Assembly (NCBI GenBank): GCA_030054035.1 | Contig: JASGCS010000007.1 | Location: 29,370-79,189, forward strand | DNA length: 49,820 nt | Source: Candidatus Methylacidiphilales bacterium | GTDB taxonomy: Bacteria; Pseudomonadota; Gammaproteobacteria; JASGCS01 | Reading direction: 5' to 3' | Shown here: piece after piece, positions 11,035 through 34,537 of the stretch | Layout: each line of letters opens with the position of its first letter | Numbering within the stretch: position 1 is the first letter of the stretch | The notes under the pieces: generated by a model | Told to the model about the DNA's origin: nothing | Database searches by the model: none | Seen by the model: only the letters and a program-made list of their open reading frames with translations | Made by a program: the position numbers and the translations under genes

Positions 11035-11709
11035 ATGACACAAATAGAACATGACGATAAGTGCGCAATACAGGTTACGGCAAAAGATGTTGCAGATGTA
11101 TTTAAAGTATTTGCCCATGGTTACAAGCAGGACATCAACCCCTATAAATTAATTAAACTGGTATATATTAGTTTTACTTGGTTTTATGCTTACAGTGGTG
11201 GCCGAAAGTTATTTGAAGATAAAATTTTGGTGGCTACCAATGGCCCTGTTATAAAATCTCTTCAAGATGAATATAGCAACGAAACTAATCCCGATTGTTT
11301 TGCGTCAGATATGTGGAGATTAGAAAATAATTATCCTTCTGAACAAGATGAAACTAAGATTAACGCGAGGTTGTTAGAAATACAAACGAAATTTATAAAA
11401 ATGGTACCACAAGAAATGGAAATGTTGCCTGCCATGATTGTAGCTGGGGTATGGGAACGGTATGGAGGTGGTAAAGATTTTAAATCCATCACCCATGATG
11501 AACGAAGTCCTTGGCACTATTGTAGAACCCATGGTATGGAAGAGTTTGATTTTACTAATCAAGAGATGGTAAATGCCTTGCAAGCAAGGGCCTTTGAGGG
11601 TAGCAAGCCTTTGGTTTCCTATGACGCAAAATTAAGAGAAAAGTTATTGAACATGGTACCTAATGCGGTAAAGCCAACCATTGTAGAAATGGGTCAGCTT
11701 GCCTCGTAA
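11035..11709 (+). CDS. Panacea (DUF4065, SocA-like) domain protein
   Basis: The frame is open upstream, but ATG 11035 is chosen because a G-rich ribosome-binding candidate (11025-11029) and a -10-like TACAAT lie just before it, giving 224 residues. The N-terminal third has the DUF4065 signature: A-K-D-V-A-D-V-F, then N-P-Y-K-L-I-K-L-V-Y, a Y-A-Y-S-G-G-R-K-L-F-E-D motif and a T-N-G-P-V-I pair. Panacea domains include SocA, the proteolysis adaptor/antitoxin of Caulobacter SocAB, and the antitoxins of PanAT toxin-antitoxin pairs, and they also occur in phage-associated proteins. No small toxin-like ORF was noticed beside it. The next gene, 60 bp downstream, encodes a large membrane protein. Whether this protein neutralises a partner is unknown. 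Confidence 0.75.
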   Translation: MTQIEHDDKCAIQVTAKDVADVFKVFAHGYKQDINPYKLIKLVYISFTWFYAYSGGRKLFEDKILVATNGPVIKSLQDEYSNETNPDCFASDMWRLENNYPSEQDETKINARLLEIQTKFIKMVPQEMEMLPAMIVAGVWERYGGGKDFKSITHDERSPWHYCRTHGMEEFDFTNQEMVNALQARAFEGSKPLVSYDAKLREKLLNMVPNAVKPTIVEMGQLAS

Positions 11710-32728: not shown

Positions 32729-34537
32729 TTATTTTGAATGAAGTGGAGTGCGTTTTTTGGATTTTATATTCATTTTACTTGTTATGGTTAGCGTATTAAA
32801 GAGAGCGCATTGCGTAATGATACTATTTTTACAATGATCAATGACATTTAGATTATGAGCCATAAACATAGTTTGTGGATCAGAAGCGATCCAGTGTGAT
32901 AATATTGTTGGTAGAGTAAATAATGGAATTGCATGATATGGTGGAGTGAAAGAAGTCATGGTGCTACTAAGAATCATGGCATGGGTTTGGTAATCGGAGA
33001 TATGAGTTCGATACGGTGTGTATGCATTTGAAGAAAAACTAAAAGGAAGATGATCGCCAAAAATAAGCACAATAAATGGTCTTGCTTTTTGTTCTATAGA
33101 ATGAATGAGCGTGAGCAATCCTTGATGTAGATTATGGTCTCGCAAAACAAATTCATTTAATTGACAAAGGAGCTCTACGGGCATTGATACGGAAGTCTCC
33201 ACTAGTAGTTTTGAATTTGCACCAAAATGTTTACAAGGATGAGGACCGTGATTTTCAATTGTAGAGATAAAAATTAGATGGGGCGGTGAGTCTAAAGTAA
33301 TTATACTATTTAATGTATTGGCAATAGTTTCTAAGTAGATAGTATCTGAAGCCTCTTGCCAATCACTGTTTACTCCGAGTTGTATTCCGTCCAGTATCGT
33401 GTCAAATCCATAGTTTTGTAGTCCATATTCAGCCGAAGAGAATTGTTTATTTTCATAGATTATTGCCTTTGCGTGGTACCCCATACTTGTAGCAAAGTGA
33501 ATAAAACTAGTTTTAATGCGTTTACTCAGAAGGTAATTGGGCTGATCAAAAGATTCTGGTGCAAAAACTTCGGCACTTAATCCAGTGAATAATTCAAACT
33601 CTGCTGTAGTTGTACCCGTGCCGAAGTTTTTGCACCAGAATCTTTTGATCAGCCCAATTACCTTCTGAGTAAACGCATTAAAACTAGTTTTATTCACTTT
33701 GCTACAAGTATGTGCGATATCCATATGGGATTCGGCAAGTATTATGTATATGTCTGGTAGGGGAAATCTATCAATTGCTTTGCTTGTTTTGAATAGCTTT
33801 GTAAATGTTTGGAAGGTATTCACCGTTGAGAATATTGGATCAGTGGTTGAAGCAGTAGTCTCATTTTGTGTTGAAGTTTTAGTTTTAGATTTATAAAAAT
33901 CATAGACCAAATAACCAATAGGACCGAGTTTGTTTTGCATGGCGAGGGATACCATTGCATAGGAGAGTCTGGTTGAATCTTTTTGTGAGACTTGCAGTCG
34001 TTCTGCTAAATCTACGGATTTATTTCCACATGAGACTATTCCAAACCATCCAATCGTAAGCGCTAAAACGAACTGCACAACGGTAACCAGAATTTTATAG
34101 TTTCCATAAAAATTGTAGGTATATGTGTAAAATCGCACTATTGGCTGTGTAACTTTTACACATATATAAATTAATAATAGCATTGCAATTATTACGATTC
34201 CCAACATTGAACTGTAGGTAAATCCAAGTGCAGAAGACATAGTATCTGGATAGATTAGGAGTAATCTAATATCTTCTAAATTAACAGGTTGATGAAGAAT
34301 GGAGAGTTTTGCCAGATTGACACCATAAAGCGCTATCATAAAAATACTAATACTTGCCCCAATGATTATTCCAAACCTTGGATGTATGGCTAATGCGCAA
34401 ATAATTAAGAATAACTCAAAAAGATGTAGTTCTGGGTAAGTAGTGGTAGCCAGATAGGTACTTAGTCCCATAGCCAGACTAAGCATGAAATAAGGTAGTA
34501 ATCGTAAAAATACTATAAAATTATTGGTATGGTACAA
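32729..34537 (-). CDS. LTA synthase/phosphoglycerol transferase-like membrane sulfatase-fold protein
   Basis: The product has 602 residues. About five transmembrane helices occupy residues 10-180. The sulfatase-fold domain follows: I-I-L-A-E-S-H-M-D (metal Glu), G-T-G-T-T-T-A-E-F-E-L-F-T-G (catalytic Thr), M-G-Y-H-A-K-A, I-S-T-I-E-N-H-G-P-H and I-F-G-D-H-L-P-F. Such enzymes move phosphoglycerol (LtaS, OpgB) or phosphoethanolamine onto glycans; Gram-negative members usually act on periplasmic glucans or envelope glycans. The substrate here is not known. The gene contains a 95-bp perfect inverted repeat (see that entry). The start is a TTG with GAGGA ten bases upstream; ATG 34486 is an internal alternative. 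Its 5' end overlaps the rhomboid start by nine bases. Confidence 0.85.
   Translation of the reverse strand: MYHTNNFIVFLRLLPYFMLSLAMGLSTYLATTTYPELHLFELFLIICALAIHPRFGIIIGASISIFMIALYGVNLAKLSILHQPVNLEDIRLLLIYPDTMSSALGFTYSSMLGIVIIAMLLLIYICVKVTQPIVRFYTYTYNFYGNYKILVTVVQFVLALTIGWFGIVSCGNKSVDLAERLQVSQKDSTRLSYAMVSLAMQNKLGPIGYLVYDFYKSKTKTSTQNETTASTTDPIFSTVNTFQTFTKLFKTSKAIDRFPLPDIYIILAESHMDIAHTCSKVNKTSFNAFTQKVIGLIKRFWCKNFGTGTTTAEFELFTGLSAEVFAPESFDQPNYLLSKRIKTSFIHFATSMGYHAKAIIYENKQFSSAEYGLQNYGFDTILDGIQLGVNSDWQEASDTIYLETIANTLNSIITLDSPPHLIFISTIENHGPHPCKHFGANSKLLVETSVSMPVELLCQLNEFVLRDHNLHQGLLTLIHSIEQKARPFIVLIFGDHLPFSFSSNAYTPYRTHISDYQTHAMILSSTMTSFTPPYHAIPLFTLPTILSHWIASDPQTMFMAHNLNVIDHCKNSIITQCALFNTLTITSKMNIKSKKRTPLHSK
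33482..33712. repeat. 95-bp perfect inverted repeat inside the LTA-synthase-like gene
   Basis: The left arm 33482-33576 is the exact reverse complement of the right arm 33618-33712, with a 41-base spacer. Both arms are translated in the gene's own frame. The right arm encodes a stretch with N-K-T-S-F-N-A-F-T-Q-K-V and W-C-K-N-F-G; the left arm encodes S-A-E-V-F-A-P-E-S-F-D-Q-P-N-Y. The catalytic motif lies in and beside the spacer. Checked base by base; the match stops at both ends. Confidence 0.95.

Follow-up and report, generated by a model that had tools for sequence, protein, structure and literature searches.

A perfect inverted repeat with 95-nt arms lies inside an LTA synthase-like gene of Candidatus Methylacidiphilales bacterium (assembly GCA_030054035.1), and it is one of five such repeats in this genome. 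The repeat is genuinely present in the draft assembly, but it is most likely an error, introduced in copying or in assembly, rather than a functional genetic element. We consider it probable that it is the footprint of a fold-back copying error resembling template switching, which most likely occurred outside the living chromosome.

The inverted repeat and its host gene

The repeat was found in a window of 49,820 nucleotides, which is the whole stretch of DNA analysed here. The window is a contig bounded by two runs of exactly 100 N (C7:29270-29369 and C7:79190-79289). The earlier note on this DNA had described a 95-bp perfect inverted repeat in an LTA synthase-like gene, and this description was borne out both by the exact arms (Table 1) and by the protein, which matched PF00884 (Sulfatase) with an E-value of 3.3e-12 (46.8 bits, cut-off 25). 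A search for an NCBIfam match to the host protein gave none. Residues E269, T309, H430, D495, and H496 were invariant in the alignment of the host protein (13 sequences). On the basis of the domain match, the catalytic Thr and the metal-binding residues, the gene can be assigned to the LTA synthase-like sulfatase superfamily. A paralogue with approximately 33% identity is encoded in the same genome.

Table 1. Positions of the host gene, the parts of its inverted repeat, and the five perfect inverted repeats of the genome
Feature	Position (strand)	Arm (nt)	Spacer (nt)	Description
LTA synthase-like gene	window 32729..34537 (-)			602 aa; N-terminal membrane helices and sulfatase/LTA synthase-like domain; PF00884
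Downstream arm	window 33482..33576 (-)	95		Putative native copy; residues about 321-352; exact complement (100%) of the other arm
Spacer	window 33577..33617 (-)		41	Family-like; catalytic Thr motif GTTTAEFELFTGL
Upstream arm	window 33618..33712 (-)	95		Putative inverted copy over native sequence; residues 276-307
Repeat in LTA-like gene	window 33482-33712	95	41	
Repeat in sucD	L030:18070-18332 (contig C2)	105	53	
Repeat in mfd	L055:2288-2582 (contig C1)	121	53	Gene start
Repeat in leuD paralogue	L057:3989-4207 (contig C1)	81	57	
Repeat in nirK	L069:3998-4228 (contig C3)	105	21	Gene start

As had been claimed, both arms are coding and are translated without a stop within the open reading frame. 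Each codon of one arm pairs with a codon of the other, which makes the upstream arm the in-phase antisense of the downstream arm, and neither arm contains a stop in this phase. Given the repeat, it is not surprising that both arms are open, since approximately 26% of the 95-nt segments of the window genes are stop-free in the same antisense phase. The invariant Thr309 lies in the spacer, which is translated as GTTTAEFELFTGL; this agrees with the location given earlier for the catalytic Thr motif. The very stable mRNA hairpin that had been expected was also found by folding, with a predicted energy of -177 kcal/mol for the repeat versus a shuffle mean of -58; such a predicted hairpin is a consequence of the repeat itself. 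The proposal that it acts as an mRNA regulator found no support, as the same structure occurs in four unrelated genes, and a regulatory role of the hairpin is unlikely.

Assignment of the putative native arm

To compare the arms, the host protein was aligned with 12 distinct homologues and mean BLOSUM62 scores were calculated. The upstream arm (residues 276-307) scored -0.49 against the family, where the homologues reached 1.02 ± 0.58 with a minimum of -0.28, and it was the worst family match in the alignment. The downstream arm scored -0.07, and its region is itself variable. Against the paralogue, the downstream arm scored 1.12, the upstream arm -0.14, and the spacer 2.92. Because the region of the downstream arm varies across the family, it is chiefly the comparison with the paralogue that suggests this arm to be native. 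Glu269 and Thr309 are 40 residues apart in the host protein and 41-42 in all homologues; as this spacing is nearly kept, the upstream arm would be a replacement of approximately equal native length and not an insertion, with a net length change of about -3 to -6 nt in the gene. Taken together, these data moderately suggest that the downstream arm is the original and that the upstream arm is its reverse complement laid before the catalytic Thr, which gives moderate support to the earlier reading of the left arm as the more family-like one.

The codon usage of the upstream arm was only mildly unusual (lowest 8-12%). AlphaFold models of the host protein and the paralogue were of modest confidence (mean pLDDT 63), and the putatively overwritten arm was modelled as a helix and a strand, much as in the paralogue, which makes these models uninformative on this arm. 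A search for close relatives among named genomes, viral contigs, and plasmids yielded nothing close.

Five perfect repeats of one size class in the genome

Inverted repeats within 1.5 kb were searched for in 1,709,824 of the 1,716,532 bases of the genome (99.6%), which was read in stretches, so repeats lying across stretch borders could be missed. Including that of the LTA-like gene, five long perfect inverted repeats were detected (Table 1). All are 100% complementary and fall into a narrow size class, with arms of 81-121 nt (101 ± 15), spacers of 21-57 nt (45 ± 15), and spans of 219-295 nt. Their length is far beyond chance: the next longest perfect inverted repeat of the genome is 25 nt, and nothing was found from 26 to 80 nt. 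No decayed copies of the class were found by a scan allowing mismatches, and the only long imperfect pair (48 nt, 87.5%, 576-nt spacer, L065:10908-10955 and 11532-11579) is of another kind. Comparison of the arm sequences of the five repeats revealed no relatedness and no common family, and no further copy of the LTA-like repeat was present elsewhere in the genome. The GC skews obtained at most of the five sites were weak and inconsistent in strand. No repeat of this class was detected in the control DNA, which amounted to 1.78 Mb and included 0.83 Mb of viral contigs, most of them from metagenomes. The comparison of five repeats in 1.71 Mb of the host genome with none in 1.78 Mb of controls is suggestive only; the lack of such repeats in the control DNA points to a cause special to the dataset or to the organism.

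The other four repeats also lie in genes, and in these the damage could be traced to different degrees. The sucD ORF corresponds to residues 1-228 of E. coli SucD (E about 1e-119), the left arm then takes the place of the following approximately 30 residues, and the match to the C-terminal 30 residues picks up again near residue 257 in another frame, with a net gain of approximately 5 nt. A second sucD was looked for in the genome and none was found, so the broken copy is the only one; the upstream sucC is intact. In the leuD paralogue, the coding sequence is interrupted after Trp-Ala-Leu-Lys and continues in a different frame, with about 11 nt more than in the intact LeuD of contig C10; its C-terminal part, a weak match (E 0.8), was identified by eye. 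Two leuD-like genes are present in the genome, an intact one near 5500-6400 of L108 (C10), followed by a leuB-like start, and the broken one at L057:3705-4028, which sits between a ppiD-like gene and lon on C1. In mfd, the left arm occupies the expected site of the N-terminus and the first open stretch starts inside the right arm, while in nirK, which retains an open frame, the right arm stands in place of the sequence that follows the signal peptide.

Judged by these alignments, one arm appears to be native and the other an inverted copy replacing native sequence in the LTA-like gene, sucD, and the leuD paralogue, and in these three genes, where it was measurable, the arm replaces about its own length. 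The nirK and mfd repeats are consistent with the same pattern, although less precisely. The arm presumed to be overwritten is the left one in three cases and the right one in two. Two of the genes (the LTA-like gene and nirK) remain open and two (sucD and the leuD paralogue) carry frameshifts, which gives no hint of selection or filtering by protein function.

Proposed fold-back copying and a probable technical origin

The layout common to the repeats would be flank A, an inverted copy of Y, a spacer S, native Y, and flank B. In the LTA-like gene, approximately 95 nt (33618-33712) would have been swapped for the reverse complement of the neighbouring 33482-33576, the lengths lost and gained being nearly equal. 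This layout is what fold-back copying would produce if the copy then rejoined its original template. Wrong-strand gap closing would produce it as well, because the sequence used to fill an assembly gap has to agree with both ends and with the length estimated for the gap. Technically, wrong-strand reads of the adjoining flank may have been used to fill a coverage gap of approximately 100 nt; alternatively, a fold-back chimera may have arisen in amplified or library DNA and prevailed where true coverage was low. Both routes fit and they are inseparable on the present data.

At the outer joins, approximately 7-12 matching bases were estimated from conserved codons, namely poly-A in sucD and mfd, ATTAAAA in the leuD paralogue, and GCAAAAATAATA in nirK; for the inner joins about 5-8 matching bases were guessed in the same way. 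These matches are estimates, and the native sequence, the microhomology (about 5-12 nt) and the technical origin are all three what we infer. A technical origin of the five repeats appears likely, and it is favoured because all of them are perfect, none is decayed, the size class is narrow, lengths are nearly kept, and core genes are broken. The assembly is a gapped draft, the scanned stretches of which hold 14 runs of exactly 100 N. Against a technical origin stands the position of both joins in the interior of scaffolds, an outcome that a simple one-sided fold-back read would not produce; fold-backs at scaffold ends or across N gaps were looked for and none was found.

Inverted chimeras of MDA and sheared libraries (PMC1855051, PMC4595205, PMC10908179) likewise join a stretch, through a short overlap, to its own reverse complement nearby, and their arms are perfect by construction. 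In phi29 products, the overlaps are mostly 5-8 nt and the distances peak at 250-300 nt (PMC4595205, PMC1855051), close to the spans of the repeats described here. Such chimeras are mostly single joins in reads, whereas the present repeats have two joins in an assembly with the replaced length nearly conserved.

Alternative explanations and known systems

The repeats may instead be real and recent template-switch mutations of the living cell, in a lineage that would tolerate hairpins as no SbcD is detectable in it, an explanation that we regard as the main rival, though a rather unlikely one. The nascent strand would fold back at a few matching bases, copy itself for approximately 100 nt and rejoin the template at a short match. 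The short matches estimated at the joins, the lack of an SbcD match in the genome, the position of both joins within scaffolds, and the controls lacking such repeats all speak for it. So do the small inverted triplications seen in cancers and in rad27 mutants of yeast, which have a median spacer of 30 bp and 6-bp junctions, and the hairpins of which are stabilised in E. coli lacking SbcCD (PMC13334657). These triplications share short spacers and microhomology junctions with the five repeats, but they are flanked by two direct duplications and vary broadly in size, whereas the size range here is narrow and no flanking direct duplication was found within 1 kb of any of the five repeats. Template-switch mutations and quasipalindrome correction (PMC8794818, PMC7202029) likewise give perfect hairpins by inverted copying of a neighbouring sequence and return to the template; the reported patterns are mostly short, whereas the arms here are approximately 100 nt and intermediate lengths are missing. 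No sign of an earlier quasipalindrome was seen in the conserved SucD segment.

The absence of decayed or shorter examples, the narrow size class, and the break in the single-copy sucD all weigh against mutation in vivo. The missing SbcD is a weak point in the case for a biological origin, because 18 of the 20 sampled genomes of the class also lack a match and the five of them that were scanned contain no long repeats; loss of SbcD was rejected as the cause for the same reason. Loss of the PolA 5' nuclease was rejected as well, as this nuclease is present in the genome. For SbcC, the host genome gave a weak sub-threshold match only, which probably belongs to another SMC-like ATPase. That five perfect fold-back replacements of approximately 100 bp are all real and recent in a deep-branching bacterium is, in our judgement, unlikely.

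On paper, the coding palindromes of nematomorph (hairworm) mitochondria (PMC6649704) look most like the present repeats: they are long, perfect, genic, and shortly spaced, with several per genome and no imperfect ones. A palindrome of this type would be maintained by conversion that keeps the arms identical while both encode functional protein, and the same binary identity has been described there (PMC6649704). In nematomorphs, the palindromes differ widely in size, conserved residues are found in the translation of both arms, and the proteins are functional; in contrast, one arm of the present repeats is foreign to the family, as seen in the alignment score of the upstream arm, and frameshifts disrupt sucD and the leuD paralogue. 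Maintained coding palindromes are therefore a very unlikely explanation.

The earlier note had listed several causes, of which template switching and assembly error agree with the findings across the genome, on account of the five perfect repeats of one size class, the overwritten arm, and the broken genes, while the invertible segment found no support. In such a switch, recombination between the arms would flip the spacer and turn the gene off, and flipping the spacer in silico does bring stop codons into the LTA-like gene after the arm. Yet no recombinase was found among the eight neighbouring genes tested, and the same structure occurs in unrelated genes; the unrelated sequences of the five repeats offer no common site for recombination, and this explanation is more improbable still. 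The palindromic elements of Rickettsia all belong to one repeated sequence family; they insert in frame, and their identity decays. A selfish element of this kind is the least probable source of all and can practically be set aside: the several palindromes within coding sequences of one bacterial genome resemble it, but their arms are unrelated to one another, the LTA-like repeat is single-copy, and native DNA was apparently replaced, not added to.

Implications

If the technical origin holds, sucD, the leuD paralogue, mfd, and the LTA-like protein wrongly look broken or odd in this genome, and errors of this kind in draft genomes could be flagged simply by closely spaced perfect inverted repeats of 80-120 nt. 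If the repeats are real, double template-switch mutations would arise naturally in this bacterium with unusual frequency. A replication or repair system would then produce such switches often and with a fixed length, perhaps also keeping the arms identical, and the repeats would be a bacterial counterpart of the hairworm mitochondrial palindromes.
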